DNA of 64,000 nucleotides from Candidatus Methylomirabilota bacterium (GTDB lineage Bacteria > Methylomirabilota > Methylomirabilia > Rokubacteriales > CSP1-6). Numbering within the stretch: position 1 is the first letter of the stretch; every line of letters starts with the position of its first letter. The DNA is taken from positions 186,001-250,000 of the forward strand of contig DASTFB010000087.1 of assembly GCA_035709005.1 (NCBI GenBank). Reading direction: 5' to 3'. The notes under the pieces are model-generated. The model did not search any database and was not told where the DNA came from. It worked only from the letters and a program-made list of their open reading frames with translations. Shown here piece by piece: positions 8,406 to 24,329 of the stretch. The translations under genes and the position numbers were made by a program.

Positions 8406-9328
8406 GCGATGGCGTGCGCGACGGCACCCTGCCCGTCGACGTCGAGGGTACGTGCGCGGCCCGCGATCTGCGCGCGCCGGAGGGCCGCCTCCATCGCTTC
8501 GGCGACGGCCTGGGCGTCGTCGGCCACCACGGCCAGCAGCGCCGGGCCGGCGCCGCTCAGCACGCATCCCAGCGCTCCGGCCCGGCGCGCCGCCGCAGCC
8601 ACCTCCGGCATCCAGGGGAACAACGACAGGCGGTACGGCTCGTGCAGCCGATCCTCCAGGGCCACCTGCAGGATCTCGGGACGGTCGGCCTGCAAGCTCG
8701 CCAGCAGCAGGGCCACCCGCTGCACGTTGAAGACCGCGTCTGAATGGGACACCGTCGCCGGCAGCACCGCCCTGGCCTCGGCGGTCGAGCTCGTGATCTC
8801 GGGCACGAGGACCACCCAGCGCAGGCGCTCGGGGACCGGCAGTGGCACGGCGGTGACTCCGTCCTTGCCCGAGCAGGACACGGTCAGGCCCCCGTAGAGC
8901 GCGGCCGCGACGTTGTCGGGATGGCCCTCGGCCCGAGCCGCCAGCGTGAGCAGCGCCGGACGGTCGAGGGGCGAGCCGAGCAGCGCATTGCCGGCCATCA
9001 GCCCGCCCACCCAGGCCGCCGCGCTGGAGCCGAGCCCGCGCGCCAGTGGGATGCGGTTCAGGCAGCGCACGGCGCATCCGGGGAAGCGACGACCGGCCGC
9101 CTCGTAGGCGGCGCGGATGCCGCGTACCACCACGTTGGGCTTGCCCGTGGGAACCTTGCCGGCACCCTCGCCCTCGACCGTCACGCTGATGCCGTCGGCT
9201 TCCTCGGCGCTCACCTCGTTGTAGAGCGCCAGGGCCAGGCCCAGCGCGTCGAAGCCCGGCCCCAGGTTGGCCGTGCTGGCAGGGACCTTGACCTGGACCT
9301 GCGGCGCTACAGCCGCTCGAGCAGCCAC
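8402..9328 (-). CDS. thrB: Homoserine kinase
   Basis: A 308-residue GHMP-family kinase that phosphorylates L-homoserine in threonine synthesis. It has the N-terminal VKVPASTANLGPGFDALGLAL motif, the ATP-binding glycine/serine loop PLARGLGSSAAAWVGG (about residues 93-108) and the C-terminal GCVLSGAGPALLAVV motif of GHMP motif 3. It overlaps ccdA by 22 nt upstream and the MFS gene by 4 nt downstream, so it sits inside a tight operon. No other threonine-pathway gene is adjacent. Confidence 0.92.
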   Translation of the reverse strand: MAARAAVAPQVQVKVPASTANLGPGFDALGLALALYNEVSAEEADGISVTVEGEGAGKVPTGKPNVVVRGIRAAYEAAGRRFPGCAVRCLNRIPLARGLGSSAAAWVGGLMAGNALLGSPLDRPALLTLAARAEGHPDNVAAALYGGLTVSCSGKDGVTAVPLPVPERLRWVVLVPEITSSTAEARAVLPATVSHSDAVFNVQRVALLLASLQADRPEILQVALEDRLHEPYRLSLFPWMPEVAAAARRAGALGCVLSGAGPALLAVVADDAQAVAEAMEAALRRAQIAGRARTLDVDGQGAVAHAIA

Positions 9329-10044
9329 GCGGGCGTCAGCGAGATGGCCCAGGCGTTGAGGACCGTGTAGTAGTTCGTGAAGACGAGCACGCCCACGACG
9401 ACGAGCAGGACGCCGGCGCTGCGCTCGACCACGGGGATGAAGGGCCGGTAGCGCTTGAAGAAGCGCAGGAAGGAGCCCAGGGCCAGAGCCGACAGCAGGA
9501 ACGGCACGCCGAGGCCGGCGGAATAGGCGACGAGCAAGCCCACCCCCCGCTGCACCGTCTCCGCCGTGCCGGCCAGCGACAGGATCGCGCCCAGAATGGG
9601 TCCGACGCAGGGCGTCCAGCCGACGGCGAACGTGATGCCCACCAGGAGGGATCCCGCGTACCCTGCGGGCTTCTCGCGCAGCTGGAAGCTCGCGGTGCGG
9701 CCCAGAAGCCCCAGCCGGAATACGCCGGCGATGTAGAGGCCGAAGAGCACGATCAGCGCGCCGCCCAGTCGACGGATCCCCTCGCGATGCTCGAGCAGAA
9801 ACTGCCCGGCCGCGCTGAACGTGGCCCCCAGCGCGATGAAGACCATGGAGAAGCCGGCCACGAAGGCGATCGCGTGCAGGAGGATGCGGCGGCGCGCCGC
9901 CGGCGCGATGTCGCCGGTCAGGTCGGCCACCGACATGCCGGTGATGAAGGACAGATACGAGGGGAACAACGGCAGCACACAGGGTGACAGGAACGAGAAG
10001 AGGCCCGCGCTGAAGGCCACCGCCACGCCGACCGACTGTCCCAT
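9307..10044 (-). CDS. ccdA: CcdA-type thiol-disulfide transmembrane transporter
   Basis: A 245-residue polytopic membrane protein of the CcdA/DsbD family that carries reducing equivalents from cytoplasmic thioredoxin to extracytoplasmic partners. The conserved FLSPCVLPLFPSYL near residue 20 and VGWTPCVGPILGAIL near residue 145 each hold one of the two redox cysteines and helix-breaking prolines. It begins 2 nt after the end of a TlpA-like gene (10047-10730), its likely extracytoplasmic electron acceptor, the usual CcdA-TlpA pairing. Confidence 0.92.
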   Translation of the reverse strand: MGQSVGVAVAFSAGLFSFLSPCVLPLFPSYLSFITGMSVADLTGDIAPAARRRILLHAIAFVAGFSMVFIALGATFSAAGQFLLEHREGIRRLGGALIVLFGLYIAGVFRLGLLGRTASFQLREKPAGYAGSLLVGITFAVGWTPCVGPILGAILSLAGTAETVQRGVGLLVAYSAGLGVPFLLSALALGSFLRFFKRYRPFIPVVERSAGVLLVVVGVLVFTNYYTVLNAWAISLTPAWLLERL

Positions 10045-10046
10045 CC

Positions 10047-10730
10047 CTATCTCGTCAGACCTTCCACCAGGGAATGCGCCGCGTCATTGTCCCAGGTTCG
10101 TGGCCCCAGCGCCAGGGCGGCCAGGTTGCCGTGCCGGTCGACGATGAACGTCGCGGGCAGCGCGCGCACGCCGTAGAGGTTGGCCACCTCGAATTTGGAG
10201 TCCAGCGCGACCGGGAACGTCAAGCGATGCTCGGCCACGAAGGGCCCGACGGGGGCGGGATCGCCGTCCAGCGAGACCGCGAGCAGGACGAAGCCACTGC
10301 CCTTGTGCTGTCGCCACAGCCGCTCCAGCGCCGGCATCTCCTCGAGGCAGGGTGGGCACCAGGTGGCCCAGAAGTTGACGAGGAGCACCTGTCCCCGATG
10401 CGCGGCGAGGCGGAAGGACTTGCCGCCCAGCAGGGGCAGCGTGAAGTCCTGCACGGCGCGGGGCCGGGACGGCCGGATCAGGTCCAGCTCGCGCATGGCC
10501 GCGTCGACGGAGATCTGACGCCCGCCCCGCGGCGTGCCCGCAGAGCCGGACGCCGGCCCCGGGGGCGCCGGCGCCGCTGGGGACGCCGGCGGCGTCTCCG
10601 GGCGGGCCGGCCGGGCGTGGACGACCGGAGCCTCGTCTTCCGCCGGACGTGAGGCGACGTAGGCGAGGCTCACGGCGATCGCCGTCAGCACCGCCGCGAG
10701 CAGAATCGAGCGAGCCAGCGCTCTCGACAT
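10047..10730 (-). CDS. TlpA-like extracytoplasmic thioredoxin
   Basis: A 227-residue protein with one N-terminal membrane anchor (SILLAAVLTAIAVSLAYVA), a Pro/Ala-rich linker (about residues 30-65) and a thioredoxin domain with FWATWCPPCLEEMPAL and the cis-Pro segment VRALPATFIVD. ATG 10730 was chosen over GTG 10742 because the GAGGG at the proper distance serves the ATG only. Its start region is shared with the divergent promoter of the peptide-binding protein gene. It is the likely partner of the CcdA encoded just downstream, for cytochrome c maturation or general thiol reduction. Confidence 0.9.
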   Translation of the reverse strand: MSRALARSILLAAVLTAIAVSLAYVASRPAEDEAPVVHARPARPETPPASPAAPAPPGPASGSAGTPRGGRQISVDAAMRELDLIRPSRPRAVQDFTLPLLGGKSFRLAAHRGQVLLVNFWATWCPPCLEEMPALERLWRQHKGSGFVLLAVSLDGDPAPVGPFVAEHRLTFPVALDSKFEVANLYGVRALPATFIVDRHGNLAALALGPRTWDNDAAHSLVEGLTR

Positions 10731-10752
10731 GGATGAAAGCACCCTCTATATT
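10724..10752 (+). promoter_or_regulatory. Sigma-70-type promoter of the ABC binding-protein gene
   Basis: TCGACA (10724-10729) and TATATT (10747-10752) are separated by 17 nt, close to the -35/-10 consensus and unusual in this GC-rich background. The predicted start near 10759 leaves a short leader holding GAGGAGG at 10767-10773 before ATG 10780. The -35 box lies inside the first codons of the divergent TlpA-like gene. Confidence 0.55.
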
Positions 10753-14574: not shown

Positions 14575-15105
14575 CTAGCCCTGGCCCTGCAGGAGGAGCT
14601 TGGCCACCTCGGACACGATCGCGCGAGCCCGTTGGTCCAGCTCGGCTTCCGTGAGGTTGGCGATCGGGTGCGGCATCATCAGGAACCGGTAGTCGGGGAG
14701 CCCCCACTGGGTGGCCATGGCCCGGCCTGTTCCCTCGAACACGTCGGTCACGATCGAGGCCGAAGGCACGCCGGCCTTCTCGAGGACGATGCCGTCGAGC
14801 ACACTGCCCGACGAGCAGGACCCTCAGTCGCCGATGCCGGCGACCACGACGTCGCAGGTCCGGCGCACCTCCTCGACGATCTCCTCGTGGGCGGGCACGC
14901 TGGCGTTCCGCTTGCGCCACATGCGCGCCGAGGCGGCCCCGTACTCCTGGACCAGCAGATCACCGATCTTCTGGAGCAACCGGTCGGAGTTGAACTTGGT
15001 GTTCTCGATGAGGGCCACGCGCTTGCCGGTGAGCGACGTCGGCCGGGCCGTGTAGGCGATGGCCTGCCGGGCCGCCGGGGTGGTAGGGTCGAGGAGCTCG
15101 ATCAT
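14575..15105 (-). CDS. Stand-alone UGSC-motif selenoprotein (Sec94)
   Basis: A 176-residue protein read through an in-frame TGA at 14824-14826: DVVVAGIGD-U-GSCSSGSVLDGIVLEKAG. The frame continues without shift for 82 more codons of sensible protein sequence (TDVFEGTGRAMATQWGLPDY, MPHPIANLTEAELDQRA). The Sec-Gly-Ser-Cys motif defines the UGSC selenoprotein family, and a Sec/Cys pair two residues apart suggests a selenenylsulfide redox centre, though the reaction is not known. Its ATG overlaps the TGA of the preceding partner-domain gene (ATGA). The same strand carries a second UGSC domain, aligned throughout, in the fusion gene at 16171-17769. A hairpin at the same distance after the UGA as in the paralogue serves as SECIS. 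Confidence 0.93.
14793..14813 (-). promoter_or_regulatory. Candidate SECIS hairpin of the stand-alone UGSC gene
   Basis: Positions +11 to +31 after the UGA fold as an 8-bp stem CGUCGGGC/GCUCGACG (one G-U pair) with loop AGUGU. Spacing, stem length and loop are the same as in the fusion paralogue (loop AGUAU). Base pair 16/26 is G-U here and U-A there, and pair 18/24 is C-G here and G-C there, so pairing is kept despite substitutions. Confidence 0.8.
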
Positions 15106-16139
15106 CGCTTGATCTCCTTTGTCACGGCTTGGCAGGAGCGCCGGCTGCCCCAGCCGGGAATGTAGGCGGAGAAGGCTCCGGCTCGCCCGCCTGCGGCCAC
15201 GACCAGAATATCATCGGGCGTTTCCACCAGCGGGCGCATCTTGCTCTCGTCACCCGGCTGAACCGGGCCGGCCATCCGCTGGGTCCGCCTGAGGTGGGCG
15301 TGGGAGTTCTGGGTGTGCTCCCACACGAAGCGGCGGATCTCCGGCTTGCCCCAACCGCCGGCGGCGATGGTCCGCATGTGCTCGCCGGCGATGATCAGCG
15401 CGTAATGCGGCTGCCCCATCACGTTGCCGGAGATCCGCATGGCGTCGCTGAGGGTGGTGAGAAACCCTTCGGCGGTATTGGAGAGCTGGTTGTACACCTG
15501 ATGGGGAGCCTCGGCGGCCATCACGGTCACCGCGCTCTGCTCGGGCCGGAGCCCCCGCTCCACGTGCAGGGGCGTCCACGGACTTTCCTCCTCGTTCTCC
15601 CCGATCACGTAGGAGAGCTTGCCGGGATGGCCCAGGGTGCCCCGGTCCAGCGTCCCCGGCCAGGATCCGCACACGTTGCGCATGATCAAGCGCACGGCCC
15701 GCCCGATGGTGAGATTCGAACGCCAGCCCGGCCCGAAGAGATTGTCGCCGCAGTTGATGTCCAGCTCCCGCCGGATGGGCCCGTTGACGATCATCAGCAC
15801 CCCGGCGCCGGCCGTCGAGGTGCCGGGCCCGTGATAGGACCACCGCGGGTCTCCGATGGCCTCCACGGCAGCGACCACCACCGGCATGTAGGCGGGGAGG
15901 CAGCCGGCCATCACCGCGTTGATGGCGACCTTCTCGGCGGTGATGGAGACCGCGCGGTGCTCGACGTAGGACACCTGGTGCTGCGGCTGCAGCCGGACCG
16001 CCTCCAGCATGGCCCGCACCTTGGCCTCGGTCGGGGGCACGACGGGCAGACCGTCGCTCCACCCTTGCTGAAAACAGAACTCGATGGCGTCGTCCGCGCT
16101 TGCCACGGAGTGACGCTGCGACGTCAACGTGACGGACAT
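15102..16139 (-). CDS. UGSC partner protein (uncharacterised conserved family)
   Basis: A 345-residue soluble-looking protein that I cannot assign to a named family. It aligns over its length with the C-terminal two-thirds of the UGSC fusion protein. Shared blocks are QGWSDGLPVVPPTEAKVRAML, MIVNGPIRRELDIN, the strongly conserved TLGHPGKLSYVIGENEEESPW followed by PLHVERGL, and the C-terminal PDDILVVAAGG. The conserved His, Glu and Gly residues suggest an enzyme or metal/cofactor binder. ATG 16139 follows an AAGGAG with good spacing. The gene overlaps the stand-alone UGSC gene by 4 nt, so partner and selenoprotein are made together, and the fusion elsewhere in the operon implies they act as one complex. 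Confidence 0.85.
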   Translation of the reverse strand: MSVTLTSQRHSVASADDAIEFCFQQGWSDGLPVVPPTEAKVRAMLEAVRLQPQHQVSYVEHRAVSITAEKVAINAVMAGCLPAYMPVVVAAVEAIGDPRWSYHGPGTSTAGAGVLMIVNGPIRRELDINCGDNLFGPGWRSNLTIGRAVRLIMRNVCGSWPGTLDRGTLGHPGKLSYVIGENEEESPWTPLHVERGLRPEQSAVTVMAAEAPHQVYNQLSNTAEGFLTTLSDAMRISGNVMGQPHYALIIAGEHMRTIAAGGWGKPEIRRFVWEHTQNSHAHLRRTQRMAGPVQPGDESKMRPLVETPDDILVVAAGGRAGAFSAYIPGWGSRRSCQAVTKEIKR

Positions 16140-16170
16140 GGCGCTCCTTTCTCCAGCGGCGGCCACCCTA

Positions 16171-17769
16171 TCACCGCCCCCTGGCGGGGGCAACGGGCTC
16201 TTCCACGGGCACGGTCACCGCGCGGGTGGCCCCGAAGGTCGGGACGATCGCCGAGTGCTTGCCGGGGCCTCCGGCCACGACCACCATCACGTCGTCGGGG
16301 GTGACGGCGACGCTCACGGTGTCGTCGGGCGAACGGCCGCGGAACCGGGCGGGGTCGATGGTGGCGAACCGGGCCAGGTTTTCCCGGCTGAACGCGCCCA
16401 GGCGCACGCGCGCGCGCTCGAAGAAGGCGCGCTTGAGGTCTTGCTTCGACCAGCCCGACGCGGCGATGGTCCGGGCGTGCTCGGGACCGAGAATGATCAA
16501 TGGCTCTCCGCCCAGGTAGATGTTGTTGTTGCCGGTGGTCGCGGCGGTACCGGCCAGCGCCGACAGCATCGCCTCCGCCGACGTCGAGCCATGGTCGTTG
16601 ACATTGTGGGGCGCCTCGGCGCCGCACACGGTCACGCAGCTGGTCGAGGCCGCCAAGCCGCGCTCGACGTGGAGCGGCTCCCAGGGCGATTCCGCCTCGT
16701 TCTCGGCCACACAGTAGGTGAACTTGCCGGGATGGCCGAGCGTGGCCCGGTCACCCTGGCCGGGTCGCGCCCCGCCGACGTTCTGCAGCGTGAGCCGGAG
16801 GGCGCGCCCCACGACGGCGTTCGCCCGGTGACCCTGCCCCAGGGCGTTGGGACCAGCGCTCACCCCGAGCCGCCGGGCGGCGGGACCATTCACGATCACC
16901 AACGGTGTGCACGGGTGGGTGGTGGCCTGGATGGCGTCGAGGTTGAAGCGGGGATCGGCGACAGCGCGGACAGCGGCGATCACCAGCGGCAGATGCTCGG
17001 GTCCGGCGCCGGCCAGCGCGGCATTGGCCGCGATCGCTTCGAGGGTTGCCCCGCCCCGTCGCGGCGCCAGGGTGGCCACGACCTCTCCGGCCGGCCGGCC
17101 GGAGAGCAGACGGGCGACTCGCTCGGCAGTCGGCGGCAGCACCGGCAGCCCGTCCCCCCAGCCTTCGGCGAGGGCGAACTCCTGGAACGCCTCGATGTCG
17201 TCGGGCGCGGCCAGCAGGGCGGCCGCGCGCGCCGCCGCCCTCGCCGAGGGAACGGGATCACGGGTCAGCGCGTGCACAACCGCGTCGAACACGCCGGCGG
17301 CGCGCGCCGCGACGGCCTCCGGATCCACGCCGCCGATGGGGTGGGCTACGGTGACGACGGGAAGGTCGGGCATGCCCAGCGCGGCGGCCGCGCCGTGGCC
17401 CAGCGAGGCGAAGAGATCAGTGCCCAGAACGACGGTGGGGATTCCCCGCGCCTCGATCTCGACCGCGTCGTGGATACTCCACGACGTGCAGGACCCTCAG
17501 TCCGCGGAACCGGTCAGGACGACGTCGGCGGCTCCCACGATGGCGTCGATGTCTTCGGCGGCCCGCGAGGACCCCGGCTTGCGCCAGCGGCGGATCGAGG
17601 CCACGCCGGCCCGGCTGACCAGGAGCTCGGCCAGGCGCGCCAGGAGCACGTCCGCGTTGGGCTTGGAGTTGTCCAGGACGGCGAGCCGGCAGCCGCCGAG
17701 AGCGGCGGGGCGCTTGGCCAGCGTTCTCAGCGATGTGTCGGTCAGCCCCAGCGGACTCAGCACCTGCAT
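16171..17769 (-). CDS. UGSC selenoprotein fused to its partner domain (Sec91)
   Basis: A 532-residue protein read through TGA 17497-17499: DVVLTGSAD-U-GSCTSWSIHDAVEIEA. Residues 1-175 are a UGSC domain (opening CRLAVLDNSKPNADVLLARL, then RRWRKPGSSRAAEDI). After a short linker, residues about 195-532 match the stand-alone partner protein (EGWGDGLPVLPPTAERVARL, RATLGHPGKFTYCVAENEAE, SPWEPLHVERGLA, VTPDDVMVVVAGG). ATG 17769 is preceded by GGGGAGG at 8-nt spacing. Stopping at the TGA would give a 90-residue stub and leave the long downstream reading frame (ATG 17373) without an N-terminus or ribosome site. It begins 14 nt after a CPBP protease gene and is followed 31 nt later by the partner gene. 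Confidence 0.93.
17466..17486 (-). promoter_or_regulatory. Candidate SECIS hairpin of the UGSC fusion gene
   Basis: Positions +11 to +31 after the UGA form a fully paired 8-bp stem CGUCGUGG/CCACGACG with loop AGUAU (G at the second loop base). This meets the bacterial SECIS requirements for distance and loop composition and is superimposable on the hairpin of the stand-alone paralogue. Confidence 0.82.
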
Positions 17770-17783
17770 CGAGTGGGCCTCCC

Positions 17784-18779
17784 CTATGTCCAGGCGTGGG
17801 CCAGGAACGCGACTAGATCGTAGACCACGTGGACGACGATAGTAAACGTCGTCGAGGTGCGCCGTTTCACCAGGCCGAGCGCTGCCCCCACCGCGAAGAT
17901 CATGAGGATTCCTGGGATCTGATACTGGACGTGGAGGACGGCGAAGAGCGCGGCGCTGACGGCGATGCCGACCCGGGGCTGGAGCGCGCCCCGGAAAAGC
18001 ACTTCCTCGCCCACCCCGGCGCTGAGCGACACCAGGGCTGCGCCAGCCACCGGCGGGATGCCGACGAGCTCGAATTCGAACCGGTCCTCGAGCGCGTGAA
18101 CGCCGGGAAGCACCAGGCTCTCGGCCCACTCCATGACGGCGACCGCGACGTTCAGGGCGAGCGCCGTCAGCGCCGCGTAGCCGACCTGCGGCGGCCGGAG
18201 TGGTCTGAGGTCGAGACGGGCCAGGGTCACGGCCACGTCGCGCGTGACCAGGAAGCCGACGCCGGCCAGAGCCAGGGCGACGTCGGAGACGACGGCGACC
18301 AGTGGCTCCGTCGGATGGAACGGGACGCTGGCGGAGGGCTCCTCCTGCAGTTGCACGAACAGGACGGCCGCGGAAAGGGCGGTCAGCACCATCGTCGCGG
18401 CGGCCACGGCGTGGACGGGACAGGCCGGGTCGAGCCCCAGCGGTCGCAGCCAGGCCGCGCGGAGCCGGGCCGGCGCCAGCACGGCGGCCAACGCGGCCGC
18501 CGCAAGCGAGGCGACGACCGTCTCGAAGGGATCGAGCCCGAACGGCTCCAGCGCGAGCGCCCACGTCGCGGCCGCGCCGGCCGCACACACTGCGGCGACC
18601 GCCAGGGCCACCCCGGTCAAGTGATTCCTGCCCCAGCTGGCGCGCCCCACCGCGTGCGCCGCCACCGCGGCGACGATCAGCGGAACGGTGAGGGCCAGGC
18701 CCTCCGCGACACCGGCGAGGTCGAGCGCAGTGAAGGCGACCGATAGAACCAGCCAGAGGAGCAGGCCCCACCCGGGCAT
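17784..18779 (-). CDS. CPBP-family intramembrane metalloprotease
   Basis: A 331-residue polytopic membrane protein. The C-terminal third holds the CPBP (CAAX protease/bacteriocin-processing) motifs: GVGEEVLFRGALQPR (glutamates and arginine of motif 1), FAVLHVQYQ (motif 2 histidine) and VVHVVYDLVA (motif 3). The N-terminal part is made of hydrophobic helices rich in Ala. An AGGAGGG precedes ATG 18779. It ends 14 nt before the UGSC fusion gene and is probably its operon leader, which hints at a membrane-linked job for the UGSC system; this is inference from position only. Confidence 0.87.
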   Translation of the reverse strand: MPGWGLLLWLVLSVAFTALDLAGVAEGLALTVPLIVAAVAAHAVGRASWGRNHLTGVALAVAAVCAAGAAATWALALEPFGLDPFETVVASLAAAALAAVLAPARLRAAWLRPLGLDPACPVHAVAAATMVLTALSAAVLFVQLQEEPSASVPFHPTEPLVAVVSDVALALAGVGFLVTRDVAVTLARLDLRPLRPPQVGYAALTALALNVAVAVMEWAESLVLPGVHALEDRFEFELVGIPPVAGAALVSLSAGVGEEVLFRGALQPRVGIAVSAALFAVLHVQYQIPGILMIFAVGAALGLVKRRTSTTFTIVVHVVYDLVAFLAHAWT

Positions 18780-18852: not shown

Positions 18853-20403
18853 TCAGGACGGGCGCCCGCGTTCGACGCGCCCGGCCGGCGGCATAGCCAC
18901 GGCCTGCCGGAACGGCAGCGTGACGGTGAACGTCGCGCCGTACCCGAGCCCCGGGCTCTCCGCCTGGACCGTGCCCCCGTGGAGCTCGACCAGATGGCGG
19001 ACGATTGCCAGTCCCAGTCCGAGCCCGCCGTGGGTTCGCGCACTGGTGGTTTCGGCCTGGCGGAACCGCTCGAAGACGTGGGGGAGAAATTCCGGACTGA
19101 TGCCCTGTCCGGAATCGCGGACGATGATCCGGACGTGCGCCCCGTCGGTCTGCAGGCTCACCTCTACGCGTCCACCGGTCGGCGTGAACTTCACCGCGTT
19201 CGAGAGCAGGTTCCACATGACCTGCTGGAGCCGACCGGGATCCCCCAGGAAGTGGGCGCCGGGGGAGTCCAGCTTCGTCTCGACGCGGATGGCCTTGGCC
19301 TCGGCCGCGGCCAGCACTCCGTCCAGGGCGGCGCGGATGACCGCGTTGAGATCGAGCGGCCGTACATCCAGGCGGAGGCGGCCGGTGATGATGCGCGACA
19401 CGTCGAGCAGGTCCTCGATGAGCCGGGTCTGAATGCCCACGTTGCGCTCGATCGTCTCCAGCGCGTGCTGGGTGGCCGTCTCGTCGAGCATGCGGTTGCG
19501 CAGCATCCGCGTCCAGCCCAGCATCGAGGTGAGCGGAGCCCTGAGCTCGTGCGAGACGGTGGCCAGGAACTCGTCCTTGGCCCGATTGGCGGCCTCGGCC
19601 TCGGCGCGGGCGACTTGCTCCCTGGCCAGCAAGGCCGCCCGCTCCTTCTCGGCCTGCGTGCGCTCGGTGACATCGCTCACGATGTACACGCAACCGATCA
19701 GCGTCCCCTCGTCGTCGAGGACGGGATCGGCCGTGACATGGTACCAGCTGTCGCGGAAGGCCATGGTAGCGGTTTCCCGGCGGCAGCTCAGGAGCAGCCG
19801 CACGAAGGGCAACTCGGAGTCACGCTCGGGCGGCCCCCCCCACAGCCGCATCACGGGAGTCCCGGTGATGTCCGAGCCGGCGCGCGCGAATATCCGGAGG
19901 AACGCCTCGTTGCACTGCAGCACGGTTCCCGCGACATTGAGGACGGCGACGCCGTCCCGGATGGCGTCGAAGGTCGCCTGCCATTGCTGGGCCAGCTGGC
20001 GTGCGCGTGCTTCGGCCCGCCGAATGCGCAGCAGGGCCTTGATGGTCGCTACCAGCACGGGCGGCTCCACCGGCTCCGTCAGATACCCGTCGGCGCCGCC
20101 CTCCAGGCCCAGGGCGCGATGGCCGGGGTTGACGAACGTCGCCGACAGATGCAGCACCGCGATCATGGCCGTCCGCGGCTCCGTCTTGAGGCGCCGGCAC
20201 ACCTCGAAACCGTCCATGTCGGGCAAGTTCACGTCGAGCAGCACCACCGCGGGAGCGTGGGCCAGGGCCGCCCGCAACGCCTCGGCGCCGGTCGTCGCCT
20301 CCCGTACGGTGAAGCCTGCCCGGCGCAGGACCTGGGTGCGCGCGTAGCGGGTCGGCTCGTAGTCGTCCACGTTGAGCACCAGGGCCGCGGCCGTTTCACC
20401 CAC
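18853..20403 (-). CDS. Response-regulator/PAS/histidine-kinase hybrid
   Basis: A 516-residue signalling protein in the order receiver (about 8-125, phosphoacceptor Asp in VVLLDVNLPDMDG), PAS (about 135-255), coiled coil, HisKA with VSHELRAPLTSMLGW (about 300) and HATPase_c with NLLSNAVKFTPTGG, DSGQGISPEF and GGLGLGLAIVRH. No membrane segment is present, so it is cytoplasmic. The GTG at 20403 has a GGAGG 6 nt upstream and overlaps the end of the preceding kinase gene by 8 nt, so it was preferred to the TTG 15 nt upstream. It is the last gene of the stressosome-type cluster and may pass the signal on through its receiver domain. Confidence 0.9.
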   Translation of the reverse strand: MGETAAALVLNVDDYEPTRYARTQVLRRAGFTVREATTGAEALRAALAHAPAVVLLDVNLPDMDGFEVCRRLKTEPRTAMIAVLHLSATFVNPGHRALGLEGGADGYLTEPVEPPVLVATIKALLRIRRAEARARQLAQQWQATFDAIRDGVAVLNVAGTVLQCNEAFLRIFARAGSDITGTPVMRLWGGPPERDSELPFVRLLLSCRRETATMAFRDSWYHVTADPVLDDEGTLIGCVYIVSDVTERTQAEKERAALLAREQVARAEAEAANRAKDEFLATVSHELRAPLTSMLGWTRMLRNRMLDETATQHALETIERNVGIQTRLIEDLLDVSRIITGRLRLDVRPLDLNAVIRAALDGVLAAAEAKAIRVETKLDSPGAHFLGDPGRLQQVMWNLLSNAVKFTPTGGRVEVSLQTDGAHVRIIVRDSGQGISPEFLPHVFERFRQAETTSARTHGGLGLGLAIVRHLVELHGGTVQAESPGLGYGATFTVTLPFRQAVAMPPAGRVERGRPS

Positions 20404-22549
20404 GGGGCGCCTCCACAACGATGCCCGCCTGGACTAGCGCCTCCCGCAACGCGGCTCGGGCGGCGCGCCGGGAACTGTTGCCTTTGGAGAGCACGGCCGC
20501 CGCCCGGCTGGCCAGCTGGCGGTGCTCGGCGGCGTCGAGCATCTTCGAGGTCAGCACGATCACGGGGATGTCGGCCGTGCGCGGCTCGCCCCTGAGACGG
20601 TCGAGCACCTCGAATCCGGTCAGGCCGGGCATGACGAGATCCAGGATGATGGCGTCCGGTCGCTCCTCCCGGGCGCGCCGCAGGCCCTCCTCCCCGCTCG
20701 CGGCTTCGCCGACGACGAACGGCAAGTCCCGCAGCACCGTGCGCAGCACATAGCGATCCACCTCCTCGTCGTCGATGATGAGCAGCCGCCGCTCGGGGGC
20801 GGGCAGCGTGAGCCGGGTCAGCGTATGGATGAGCCAGTCGCGCTCGATGGGCTTGACGCCGTACGCATCGGCGCCGAGCGCCAAACCCTTCTGGCGATCC
20901 TCGACGGAGGTCGCCACGATGACGGGGACCGATTCCCCCTCGTGGCCCCGCTTGGTCTCGACCAGGAATTCCCACGCGTCCTCGCCCCGCAACACGATGT
21001 CCAGGATCACGGCGCGGGGCCGCGCCACCTTCAGCGCCTGCCGCGCCTGGCGGGTCGTGGCGGCGTGCACGAGCTGAAATTGAGTGCCCCTGAGGAACTT
21101 CTCGTAGAGCAGACGCTCCTGGGAGCTGTCCTCCACGACCAGCACCGGCACGCGGTCGGGCTCGGGCCGCCAGTCGGCCTCGAGGGGCGGCTCCACCGGC
21201 TCGGGCTCGGCATAGCGGATCGGGATCGTCGCCGAGAACGTCGAACCCAGGCCAGGCTGGCTCTGGACGGCGATGCTACCGCCCAGCAGGGCGGTGAGCT
21301 TGCGGGTAAGCGGCAGGCCCAGGCCGGTGCCGCGGAACCTCCGCTGCACGGGATGGTCCAGCTGGGTGAAGTCCTCGAAGATCCGCTCCAGGTCCTCGGG
21401 GGCGATCCCGATCCCGGTGTCGGCGACGGAGAAGACCACGGCCTGCCCATCGGAACTGAGGGTTGCCGACACGCGCACCTCGCCGCGCTCGGTGAACTTG
21501 AGCGCGTTGGAGATGAAGTTGCGCAGGATCTGGGAGACCTTGGCCTCGTCCGTGTCGAGCGGCGGGAGCGAGGATGGATCCTCGATCACGAGGCTCACCG
21601 CTTCGTTGACGAGGAGCGGGCGCAGCATGCCGCGCAGCGCCCCGAACAGGCCGGCCACGTCGAATTCCGAGGGCCGGACGACGATCTTGCCCGCCTCCAC
21701 CTTGGCCAGGTCGAGCAGGTCGTTGACCAGCTCGGAGAGCTCCTCGGCCGCGCGCCGGATGAACCCGACCTGTTTGTCCTGCTCGCTGGTCAACGGCCCG
21801 TCGGCATGCTCGAGGAGCAGGCCGGACAGGGCCAGGATGGAATTGAGGGGGGTGCGGAACTCGTGGCTCATGTTCGACAGGAACCGCGACTTCATCGTGT
21901 CGGCCTGGCGCAGATGCTCGGCCTTCTCGTCGAGCTCGGCATAGAGGGCCACCACCCCCCGGTTGGTGTCCTCGAGCTCGCTGTTGAGCAGCGAGAGCTC
22001 CTCCTGGCGGGCCCGCAGCTCCTCCAGGGTGCGCAGGAGCTCCTGGTTCTGGCGCTGGAGCTCGGCCAGCGGGTCGATGGACTCCTGCATCGCCAGCCGC
22101 CTGCCCAGCGCGTCGAGCATCTCGGGGAGCATGACCGGCGCTCGTCGCGGGAACAGCTTTTTCAGCGACACCCGCGTCCCGCGACCGGGGGTCGACTCGA
22201 TCTCGAACCGGTCCACGAGACGCCGGGCGCCCACGATGCCCAGGCCCATTCCCGTTCGGGATTCGTAGTCGCCGTCGAGGACCCGGGACAGATTCGGGAT
22301 CCCGGGCCCCTGGTCGCTCACCTGGACGACGAAGAGCTGCGGCGCCTCCTTGCCTTCCACCAGGAAGTCCACGCGGCCGCCCCCGGCGTACGAGTACGCG
22401 TTGCGCGCGATCTCCGAGACGGCAGTGGCGATGCGCGTCTGGTCCTGCGCGTCGAACCCGAGCTGCTCGGCAATGGCCCGGGCCCGCTGGCGGGCCGTCA
22501 CGACATCGGGTTCGTGTCGGAGGGCTAGCCCGAGCACAAGGGACGGCAT
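20396..22549 (-). CDS. RsbT-like ATPase/histidine kinase with two receivers
   Basis: A 717-residue multidomain protein. Residues 1-130 are a stand-alone type HATPase of the RsbT/RsbW class (AVSEIARNAYSYAGGGRV, SDQGPGI, RTGMGLGIVGARRL). A coiled coil follows (155-215), then HisKA with His229 in NMSHEFRTPLNSILA, a second HATPase (NFISNALKFTERG, DTGIGIAPEDL, GTGLGLPLTRKL), and two receiver domains (about 467-585 and 595-710, the latter with IILDLVMPGLTGFEV). The fusion of an anti-sigma-type ATPase to a hybrid kinase suggests it receives the output of the stressosome encoded upstream and feeds a phosphorelay. It begins 4 nt after the RsbX-like gene. Confidence 0.9.
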   Translation of the reverse strand: MPSLVLGLALRHEPDVVTARQRARAIAEQLGFDAQDQTRIATAVSEIARNAYSYAGGGRVDFLVEGKEAPQLFVVQVSDQGPGIPNLSRVLDGDYESRTGMGLGIVGARRLVDRFEIESTPGRGTRVSLKKLFPRRAPVMLPEMLDALGRRLAMQESIDPLAELQRQNQELLRTLEELRARQEELSLLNSELEDTNRGVVALYAELDEKAEHLRQADTMKSRFLSNMSHEFRTPLNSILALSGLLLEHADGPLTSEQDKQVGFIRRAAEELSELVNDLLDLAKVEAGKIVVRPSEFDVAGLFGALRGMLRPLLVNEAVSLVIEDPSSLPPLDTDEAKVSQILRNFISNALKFTERGEVRVSATLSSDGQAVVFSVADTGIGIAPEDLERIFEDFTQLDHPVQRRFRGTGLGLPLTRKLTALLGGSIAVQSQPGLGSTFSATIPIRYAEPEPVEPPLEADWRPEPDRVPVLVVEDSSQERLLYEKFLRGTQFQLVHAATTRQARQALKVARPRAVILDIVLRGEDAWEFLVETKRGHEGESVPVIVATSVEDRQKGLALGADAYGVKPIERDWLIHTLTRLTLPAPERRLLIIDDEEVDRYVLRTVLRDLPFVVGEAASGEEGLRRAREERPDAIILDLVMPGLTGFEVLDRLRGEPRTADIPVIVLTSKMLDAAEHRQLASRAAAVLSKGNSSRRAARAALREALVQAGIVVEAPRG

Positions 22550-22553
22550 GACG

Positions 22554-23576
22554 TTACTCCGACGACTCGCGGGCCACGATGACCGTCACGTCGTCGCGGC
22601 CGCGGGTGAAGTCACGGTAGAGCACACCGGCGATCAGGCCGGGGTGACGCCGGGCCAGCCCCGGGTAGCGCTCGAGGTCCCAGTGGGTGGCCAGGCCGTC
22701 CGAATGCAGCACGAGCAGGCCGCCGGGCGGCCACGGATAACTGAACTCGTCGATCCGTCCGGCGGAGTGTCCCGCCGTCCCGTTCTGGGAGACCAGCCGG
22801 CGAACACCCTCGTCGCCGACGATGACGGCCGAGATGTTGCCGAGCCCGCAGAACCGGACCACGCTGCGGCCGAGATCGACCTCGGCGACGGCCAGGGCGC
22901 CTCCCCGGGTGCCCTTGAGCCCGGCATGGGCCGCGGCGACCCAGCTCCGCGGTCCGTCACCGGTATGCCGACGGACCAGTCGCATCGCCGTCCAGGCGGC
23001 CTCACCCGCCAGGGGACCATGCCCGAGACCGTCGGCGACGGCGATGATGCTCCGCAAGCCGAGCCGCTCCACCATCCAGTCGTCGCCAGCGACGTCCTCC
23101 CCGGCCTTGGCGACACACACGGTCCCGACGTCCAGCCTCGGCCCGGCGGGCCGCGTGGGCTTCCTCTTGCCCCAGAGCTGGACCACGATCGCCGTGCCGG
23201 CGGCGGCCAGCGAATACAGGTCGAAACGGTCGCTGAGCCGGCGGACCGCGCCAAGACCGGTCCCCGGCGTCCCCGCGGTCGAGGCGCCGTCGCGCAGCGA
23301 CTCGGCCAGGTTGGCGATGCCCGGTCCGCGGTCCACCGCTGATACTCCCACGCCGCAGCAACCGTCCTCGTCCAGCGTCTGGAGCAGCAGCTCGCCGCCG
23401 CCCGCGTGCTTCAGGAGATTGCTACCCAGCTCCGTGACTACCAGCGCCACCCGGCCGGCATGCTCGGCGTCGAACCCCAGTCGGAGGGCCAGCTCCTGGG
23501 CGGCCCGGCGAGCCTCCCCGGGCTGGCTCGGGTCCATGACGGCAAACTGGCGGGTGGCGCCCCGGCCGGCCGTCAT
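22554..23576 (-). CDS. RsbT-like ATPase fused to an RsbX-like phosphatase
   Basis: A 340-residue protein. Residues about 20-135 are an HATPase of the RsbT/RsbW type (VVTELGSNLLKHAGGGELLL, VDRGPGIANLAESL, TGLGAVRRL). Residues about 150-340 are a PP2C/SpoIIE-like serine phosphatase as in RsbX (SIIAVADGLGHGPLAGEAAW, FCGLGNISAVIV, LVLHSDGLATHW, GRDDVTVIVARE). In stressosomes RsbX removes phosphate from RsbR/RsbS to reset the complex. ATG 23576 overlaps the TGA of rsbT (ATGA). Confidence 0.9.
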   Translation of the reverse strand: MTAGRGATRQFAVMDPSQPGEARRAAQELALRLGFDAEHAGRVALVVTELGSNLLKHAGGGELLLQTLDEDGCCGVGVSAVDRGPGIANLAESLRDGASTAGTPGTGLGAVRRLSDRFDLYSLAAAGTAIVVQLWGKRKPTRPAGPRLDVGTVCVAKAGEDVAGDDWMVERLGLRSIIAVADGLGHGPLAGEAAWTAMRLVRRHTGDGPRSWVAAAHAGLKGTRGGALAVAEVDLGRSVVRFCGLGNISAVIVGDEGVRRLVSQNGTAGHSAGRIDEFSYPWPPGGLLVLHSDGLATHWDLERYPGLARRHPGLIAGVLYRDFTRGRDDVTVIVARESSE

Positions 23577-23971
23577 CTCCACTTGGTCACCGTCACCCGC
23601 GTGCCTTCACCGCGCCGCGACACGATCTCGAATTCGTTGCACAGCCTTCGGGCGCCCCCCAGGCCGAGCCCCAGGCCCCCGCCCGTCGTGTACCCGTCCT
23701 TGAGGGCAAGCTCGATGTCCCCGATTCCCGGCCCCTTGTCCTCGAAGATGAGCCGCAGGCCCCGCCGGGTCCCCTCGGCCAGCGCCTGCAGATCGACGCG
23801 GCCTCCCCCGCCGTGATCGAGCGTGTTCCGGGCCAGCTCGCTGGCCGCGGTGACCAGCTTGGTCTGATCGACCAGCGAGAATTGCAGATCCACCGCCCAT
23901 TGCCTCACTTGCTGGCGAACCGCGACGATGTCGTCCGAGGACCGGATGGGGCGGCTGTCACTCCTGAGCAC
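23573..23971 (-). CDS. rsbT: Stressosome switch kinase RsbT
   Basis: A 132-residue single-domain serine kinase of the GHKL fold. The N box is ASELARNTLDHGGGGRVDL, the ADP-binding G1 box FEDKGPGIGDIELAL, and the lid/G2 region GGGLGLGLGGARRL. In the paradigm, RsbT is held by the RsbR-RsbS complex, phosphorylates both on stress and is released to activate a downstream partner. The start is a GTG at 23971 that overlaps rsbS by 14 nt. The gene order R-S-T-X is conserved here. Confidence 0.93.
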   Translation of the reverse strand: MLRSDSRPIRSSDDIVAVRQQVRQWAVDLQFSLVDQTKLVTAASELARNTLDHGGGGRVDLQALAEGTRRGLRLIFEDKGPGIGDIELALKDGYTTGGGLGLGLGGARRLCNEFEIVSRRGEGTRVTVTKWR

Positions 23972-24329
23972 GACCCCGCCCGTTCGCGCGCAGCAGCTCC
24001 ATGCCCTTCTCGACGTTGAGGGCGGTCCGCACGCCGGGCAGCTGGAGCCCCAGCTCCACGAGCGTGATGGCCACGGCCGGCTGCATGCCGACGACGACGG
24101 TCTGGGCGTCGAGGACTCGGGACATCCCCGCGATGTTGGCGAGCATGCGCCCGATGAACGAGTCCACCACCTCGAGCGACGAGATGTCGATGAGCACTCC
24201 CCGGGCCCGTGTCTTCACGATGCGGTCCGTGAGGTCGTCCTGCAGCGTCATGGCCAGGCGATCGTGCATGTCGACCTGAATCGACACGAGCAGAAACTCG
24301 CCCATTTTGAGGATCGGAATACGTTCCAT
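23958..24329 (-). CDS. rsbS: Stressosome STAS protein RsbS
   Basis: A 123-residue single STAS domain (MERIPILKMGEFLLVSIQVD). The predicted phosphorylated serine is in ISSLEVVDSFIGRML, equivalent to Ser59 of Bacillus RsbS. It has no N-terminal sensory extension, which separates it from RsbR. It lies 12 nt after rsbR and overlaps rsbT. Confidence 0.93.
   Translation of the reverse strand: MERIPILKMGEFLLVSIQVDMHDRLAMTLQDDLTDRIVKTRARGVLIDISSLEVVDSFIGRMLANIAGMSRVLDAQTVVVGMQPAVAITLVELGLQLPGVRTALNVEKGMELLRANGRGRAQE

Follow-up and report, generated by a model that had tools for sequence, protein, structure and literature searches.

A UGSC selenoprotein and its constant partner protein as a possible two-subunit reductase with a PrdB-like selenocysteine subunit

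The operon and the pairing of UGSC with its partner

The 64,000-nucleotide window analysed here (contig DASTFB010000087.1 of the Candidatus Methylomirabilota assembly GCA_035709005.1, order Rokubacteriales, positions 186,001 to 250,000) contains a minus-strand operon in which a UGSC selenoprotein occurs twice, once as a stand-alone protein encoded behind a partner protein and once as the N-terminal domain of a fusion with a second copy of that partner (Table 1). The genes are transcribed in the order CPBP, fusion, stand-alone partner, UGSC, and the stop codon of the stand-alone partner overlaps the start codon of the UGSC gene (ATGA). Both UGSC copies hold a single in-frame UGA at the motif D-Sec-G-S-C (Sec, selenocysteine), beyond which the frame stays open. 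They match the UGSC profile PF24696 (E-values of 8.5e-61 and 3.5e-49, with 205.5 and 167.7 bits against a cut-off of 25) and the NCBIfam model NF041046 (141.6 and 133.8 bits against a cut-off of 125). These matches and the open reading frame calls confirm the coordinates, the protein lengths and the two in-frame UGAs at Sec-Gly-Ser-Cys given in the initial annotation, which was made from the nucleotide letters. In the alignments, the UGSC halves of the fusion and the split pair are 34% identical and the partner halves 42% (41-42%), and the blocks LGHPGK, ENExESPW, and PLHVERG, described earlier as LGHPGK/ENExxSPW/PLHVERG, are present in both partner copies.

Table 1. Features of the UGSC operon and their positions in the window
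Feature	Position	Strand	Remark
UGSC-partner fusion gene, 532 aa	16171..17769	-	residues 1-169 form the UGSC domain and about 191-532 the partner domain
In-frame UGA, Sec91 of the fusion (DUGSC, codon 91)	17497..17499	-	
Selenocysteine insertion sequence (SECIS)-like hairpin of the fusion	17466..17486	-	9-bp stem, GUA loop
Stand-alone partner gene, 345 aa	15102..16139	-	unnamed family
Stand-alone UGSC selenoprotein gene, 176 aa	14575..15105	-	
In-frame UGA, Sec94 of the stand-alone UGSC (DUGSC, codon 94)	14824..14826	-	
SECIS-like hairpin of the stand-alone UGSC gene	14793..14813	-	
CPBP/Rce1-like membrane protein gene	17784..18779	-	14 nt upstream of the fusion

The window genome encodes six UGSC proteins and seven partners, and all six UGSC genes adjoin a partner. 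When the survey was anchored on the partner, 76 of 89 hits (80 loci) had a UGSC gene within 3 kb on the same strand, and several of the remaining hits lie at contig ends. Anchored on UGSC, it covered 24 genomes of many phyla, and a partner lies within 3 kb of at least 122 of the 150 UGSC genes listed, where about 3 are expected by chance; the 24 genomes were picked for holding a partner, so this figure describes such genomes and not all UGSC carriers. All 122 pairs are on the same strand, with a median gap of 99 nt. Copy numbers in the surveyed genomes are near 1:1 (e.g., 6/6, 8/8, 6/6, 8/8, 24/25, and 32/35) and reach a maximum of 32-35 UGSC proteins and 30-35 partners per genome.

Fusions of the two domains, always with UGSC first, are found in Rokubacteria, a Betaproteobacterium, Smithella, and a Dehalococcoidia genome, and on plasmids of Sporomusa, Vibrio, and Variovorax. 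The window genome has a second, different fusion on another contig (C70). No fewer than 10 Rokubacterial loci show the order fusion-partner-UGSC, a few of them with the contig ending before the last gene. UGSC and the partner thus almost certainly form one functional unit. The initial annotation had read the fusion and the partner as marks of a functional pair, and the survey bears this out, the pair being common and the fusions recurrent, which is the opposite of the rare linkage and single fusion that were named as speaking against it. There is next to no probability that the linkage comes from chance or hitch-hiking and the fusion from a quirk of one assembly: the surveyed pairing, the recurrent fusions, and the conserved Rokubacterial order refute this explanation, for which we found no point in favour.

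The fusion's partner half and the stand-alone partner fall into different deep clades of the family tree, and forcing both Rokubacterial partner groups into one clade was rejected (approximately unbiased test, p-AU 9e-5), which rules out a local duplication within the operon. Because of this deep split and the rejected constraint, the Rokubacterial operon is, by the tree, a junction of two old paralogues without recent duplication. The earlier proposal that genes duplicated within one operon and then fused or split was given up for the same reasons and because the gene order is kept in at least 10 genomes. The CPBP protease had also been counted as part of the operon unit; of 13 Rokubacterial loci, the window included, only 4 have a CPBP gene next to the fusion, and two of the four are possibly the same genome. 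This rules it out as a constant member, and the gene probably does not belong to the unit.

Upstream of the CPBP gene, the minus strand (window positions 18853-24329) encodes hybrid histidine kinases, response-regulator domains, and a STAS protein, a run that resembles a phosphorelay/stressosome cluster. A CcdA/DsbD-type membrane protein and a TlpA-like thioredoxin are encoded at 9307-10742 on the minus strand, 4 kb beyond the UGSC gene, with a peptide ABC transporter operon of opposite orientation lying in between.

Selenocysteine coding and kinship of UGSC with GrdB and PrdB

A hairpin lies 13-33 nt after the UGA in both window copies and is conserved across 74 distinct UGSC genes. In these sequences, each of the inner five pairs forms in 96-100% of cases, with two-sided changes (C-G/G-C and U-A/G-U/U-G/A-U). 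For the nine-pair stem as a whole, the paired fraction of cells is 83%, compared with 20-52% when the partners are slid. The loop starts with G in 72 of the 74 genes (97%). An Rfam search with the hairpin matched no family. The window genome encodes tRNA-Sec and SelA on one contig (C64) and also SelB, and together with the conserved hairpin this leads us to read the UGA as Sec. Within the UGSC family, the position Sec/Cys94 is invariant and the resolving Cys97 of the UxxC motif is retained in more than 90% of the proteins; UGSC proteins of the cysteine (Cys) type are found in Mycobacterium, Arthrobacter, Roseovarius, Variovorax, and haloarchaea.

We compared 76 UGSC proteins with 18,950 NCBIfam models, and the top five families after their own are all protein-B selenoproteins, namely GrdB (43 proteins, best E-value 5e-7), GrdF (29), the general GrdB/PrdB model 'various_sel_PB' (24), GrdH (20), and PrdB (18), with the next, unrelated family matching 7. 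A profile comparison of UGSC with Rokubacterial GrdB-like selenoproteins aligns Sec on Sec over 92 columns, with a probability of 93% and an E-value of 2.7e-7. The UxxC Sec near the C-terminus of an alpha/beta domain, a trait of GrdB and PrdB, is found in UGSC as well, and the 82 residues that follow Sec in the stand-alone protein fit the distances of 90 in PrdB (242-152) and 86 in GrdB (PMC3091704). By these profile comparisons, UGSC and the Sec-carrying end of the GrdB/PrdB selenoproteins are homologues.

GrdB-like selenoproteins also occur in Rokubacterial genomes as separate genes. The window genome has a candidate of 397 residues resembling the GrdB C-terminus, with an in-frame UGA (TPTUPLCTH, Sec157), on the plus strand of another contig (L198, G000:C130, 9579-10772), about 8 kb from a UGSC/partner pair. 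Four loci of other Rokubacterial genomes (L124, L125, L126, and L127) encode full-length GrdB-like selenoproteins with Sec (TSTUGTSTRC or TATUGTCTRC), and in L125, L126, and L127 a GrdE-like gene lies upstream. The phylum is not usually linked with glycine reductase.

The partner family and the joint structure model

The partner was found in 71 of 95 genomes of the window's phylum. GTDB genomes from many phyla encode it at no fewer than 574 sites, and halophilic archaea have it too. In annotated plasmid records it is named 'hypothetical protein'. None of 84 family members gave a significant Pfam or NCBIfam match, and a sequence search of the PDB gave none either. The AlphaFold2 model of the stand-alone partner is confident (predicted local distance difference test score (pLDDT) 93.9, predicted template modelling score (pTM) 0.92). 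Its best Foldseek matches, to class I fumarate hydratases (E-value 1.4e-5, template modelling (TM) score about 0.3, root mean square deviation 16 Å) and the Toblerone hydrolase fold, superpose badly, and we accepted neither assignment. The claim that the partner belongs to an unnamed family therefore holds, the profile searches being empty and the structure search having returned low-TM matches.

Shorter partner homologues are found in four Poribacteria loci (L069, L071, L073, and L081) with no UGSC gene within the locus; one of these genomes (G101, with L069) encodes one UGSC and one partner on different contigs. Two Nitrospinota genomes have four tandem partner genes near a single UGSC gene (G112:C15:58901-63073 and G109:C58:40725-44898), hinting at hetero-oligomers of partners.

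The whole fusion chain was modelled by AlphaFold2 with a pLDDT of 93.8 and a pTM of 0.92. Because this pTM (predicted aligned error not given) was reached in a two-domain chain, the model implies that the mutual placement of the domains is confidently predicted. The UGSC domain folds in this model into a Rossmann-like structure of alternating beta-strands and alpha-helices, and a Foldseek search with the fusion gave only partial matches to assorted alpha/beta proteins.

Near-invariant residues of the partner include D29, G30, P32, N74, G79, C80, R140, N142, R147, N155, E181, and W188. Of 84 aligned partners, 69 retain Cys80 together with Cys178. Within the operon of Rokubacteria, Ala80/Cys178 is found in the fusion and Cys80/Val178 in the stand-alone partner at every locus readable at both sites. 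This reciprocal loss in adjacent genes suggests either that the two proteins share one set of sites within a mixed complex or that they are two specialised enzymes.

The conserved cysteines also bear on a different explanation, in which UGSC would be a general thioredoxin-dependent thiol peroxidase or disulfide reductase that keeps Cys80 and Cys178 of the partner reduced, the partner being a client or scaffold that does the chemistry itself, for example as a hydratase-like enzyme. The near-invariance of Cys80, the frequency of Cys178, and the fumarate hydratase matches suit such a role, as do the enolase and aconitase X genes adjoining the Vibrio and Sporomusa copies, the thioredoxin genes described below, and a peroxidase activity of GrdB, reported in the title of reference B55 in PMC3091704. 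Yet Cys80 is missing from the partner half of the fusion and Cys178 from the split partner, and both are paired with a Sec-containing UGSC; a general repair protein would moreover not require its own copy for every paralogue, of which a genome can have up to about 35. We regard this explanation as unlikely.

Electron supply, the proposed enzyme, and known systems

Thioredoxin system genes stand beside the pair in several hosts. The operon of Arthrobacter sp. ERGS1:01 reads trxB-trxA-partner-UGSC and that of Roseovarius THAF8 partner-UGSC-trxB, and the trxB gene of Variovorax SRS16 is found three genes upstream from the partner, with scores over the TIGR01292 cut-off in all three. Flavoproteins resembling TrxB are encoded next to the pair in Haloterrigena and close to a fusion in V. 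boronicumulans. Counted over 13 annotated plasmid loci, trxB or trxA-trxB is beside the pair in three, and a TrxB-like protein in two more. The electrons for glycine reduction are supplied through NADPH, TrxB, and thioredoxin (PMC3091704).

Other close neighbours of the pair are TctC uptake proteins, coenzyme A (CoA) transferases, and amidohydrolases. Luciferase-like monooxygenases are near the pair in 16 of 80 loci; host genomes hold up to at least 91 of them, and a link is not claimed for genes so common. On haloarchaeal plasmids (L173, L181, L184, and L185), UGSC and partner, or the partner, lie near DUF6282, a CoA transferase, a CoA ester lyase, or TAXI-type tripartite ATP-independent periplasmic (TRAP) uptake genes, which we propose to be a recurrent catabolic island.

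We infer, with as much doubt as confidence, that UGSC and the partner form a two-subunit reductase driven by thiols or thioredoxin, composed of a PrdB-like Sec subunit and a new substrate subunit. UGSC would be a minimal form of the subunit that carries Sec in the proline/glycine reductase class (PrdB, GrdB). From a helix start in the Rossmann-like domain, its selenolate would attack the substrate once bound, or an oxidised bond of that substrate, and the nearby Cys of U-G-S-C would resolve the selenium intermediate to a selenenylsulfide, to be reduced again by thiols and in some hosts by a dedicated thioredoxin/thioredoxin reductase. Se-C bond cleavage and regeneration by a dithiol are described for glycine and D-proline reductase (PMC10298544). 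The partner would replace PrdA/GrdE, binding the substrate and holding the UGSC domain over it, and would use Asp29, Asn74, Cys80, Arg140, Asn142, Arg147, Asn155, Cys178, Glu181, and Trp188. Paralogous pairs may serve different small organic substrates, imported by the neighbouring transporters, and the co-encoded fusion and split pair of Rokubacteria, with opposite conserved cysteines lost, may form one mixed complex.

Several results weigh against this reductase. Membership in the GrdB/PrdB selenoprotein B family was tested by the cut-offs of PF07355, TIGR01917, and TIGR04483, and none of the UGSC proteins known here reaches a curated GrdB/PrdB cut-off; TIGR01917 gives the fusion 16 bits against a cut-off of 602, and PF07355 has no match in the window proteins. 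A search of 95 loci, with a working positive control, found no GrdE/PrdA-like or GrdB gene near the pair, and a profile comparison rules out the partner as a GrdE relative. In the Sporomusa and Vibrio fusions, Met replaces Sec/Cys, so these members are incapable of selenol chemistry. Among 80 mainly Sec-type loci, no TrxB and only one TrxA were found. Many hosts are probably aerobic, unlike the classical glycine and proline reducers. As the partner is unrelated to GrdE and no GrdE/PrdA-like gene lies near the pair, the pyruvoyl mechanism is not transferable; for the same reasons, and with scores below the cut-offs, we do not claim membership in the glycine or proline reductase complexes. Our statement is that the pair works like them, which we think could equally well prove right or wrong.

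The Met-containing fusions bear on a further alternative, that the pair catalyses a non-reductive reaction such as an isomerisation, elimination, or hydrolysis, with the selenolate as nucleophile or base. Besides these fusions without Sec/Cys, the aconitase X neighbours and the weak partner matches to fumarate hydratase and Toblerone-fold hydrolases point this way. The invariant Sec/Cys94 with Cys97 in more than 90% of the family is, on the other hand, the mark of a redox cycle, and the trxB/trxA neighbours also argue against a non-reductive reaction, which we consider quite improbable. The fusions of Sporomusa termitida (L177, 5329-7053) and Vibrio europaeus (L180, 5362-7047) have the motif DMGTS, and aconitase X and DUF126 genes lie near both, raising the question of whether they form a non-redox branch.

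With somewhat more doubt than the reductase itself, the pair may be placed in a separate class of substrate-diversified selenoenzyme reductases, having a PrdB-like Sec subunit and a large subunit of a new family instead of a pyruvoyl protein, occurring in bacteria and halophilic archaea with about 35 pairs in some genomes, and including in Rokubacteria a mixed enzyme built from two complementary copies. If the proposed reductase exists, Sec-based reduction of small organic compounds would reach past Clostridia-type fermenters into soil and ocean lineages (Rokubacteria, SAR202, Binatota, and Burkholderiales) and would amount there to a substantial catabolic trait that has gone unrecognised. With the constant partner, the homology to a class of known chemistry, and the thioredoxin link, what was an orphan motif becomes a two-subunit enzyme that can be tested.

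UGSC is among the most abundant selenoproteins in aquatic metagenomes, with 255 in the Global Ocean Sampling (GOS) data (PMC2398784). PF24696 and NF041046 represent it as a motif family without a function, whereas its constant partner lies outside Pfam and NCBIfam. Zhang and Gladyshev 2008 (PMC2398784) describe a UGSC protein fused to a conserved unnamed domain, 'Unknown_1', give conserved Cys as the rule in such fused domains, and suggest that UGSC is thioredoxin-like; our model is of the Rossmann type with alternating beta/alpha elements instead. Unknown_1 is quite possibly the present partner. Compared with that fusion, the domain accompanies nearly every surveyed UGSC here, in most cases encoded by its own gene, and does so in genomes from soil, from the sea, and of halophilic archaea. 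The view that partner and operon had not been described is not supported, a UGSC/Unknown_1 fusion having been published in 2008. The literature searched holds no account of a constant UGSC partner, a relation to GrdB/PrdB, or a thioredoxin link. As far as we know, three points appear to be new: the pair's universality, the link to GrdB/PrdB, and the reciprocal Cys losses.

Among known enzymes, D-proline reductase (PrdA/PrdB) differs in that the partner is unrelated to GrdE, tested as the PrdA counterpart, and that no PrdC, PrdD, or PrdE neighbours were noticed; it resembles the UGSC-partner pair in combining a small selenoprotein subunit (242 residues, Sec152, UxxC) with a larger one. From glycine, sarcosine, and betaine reductase (GrdB, GrdF, and GrdH with GrdE), the pair differs by a UGSC without the N-terminal GrdB part, without GrdE nearby, and with the scores seen lying below the curated cut-offs, and it shares with them the homologous Sec domain, a Sec about 86 residues from the C-terminus, and, in some hosts, TrxB/TrxA as possible donors.

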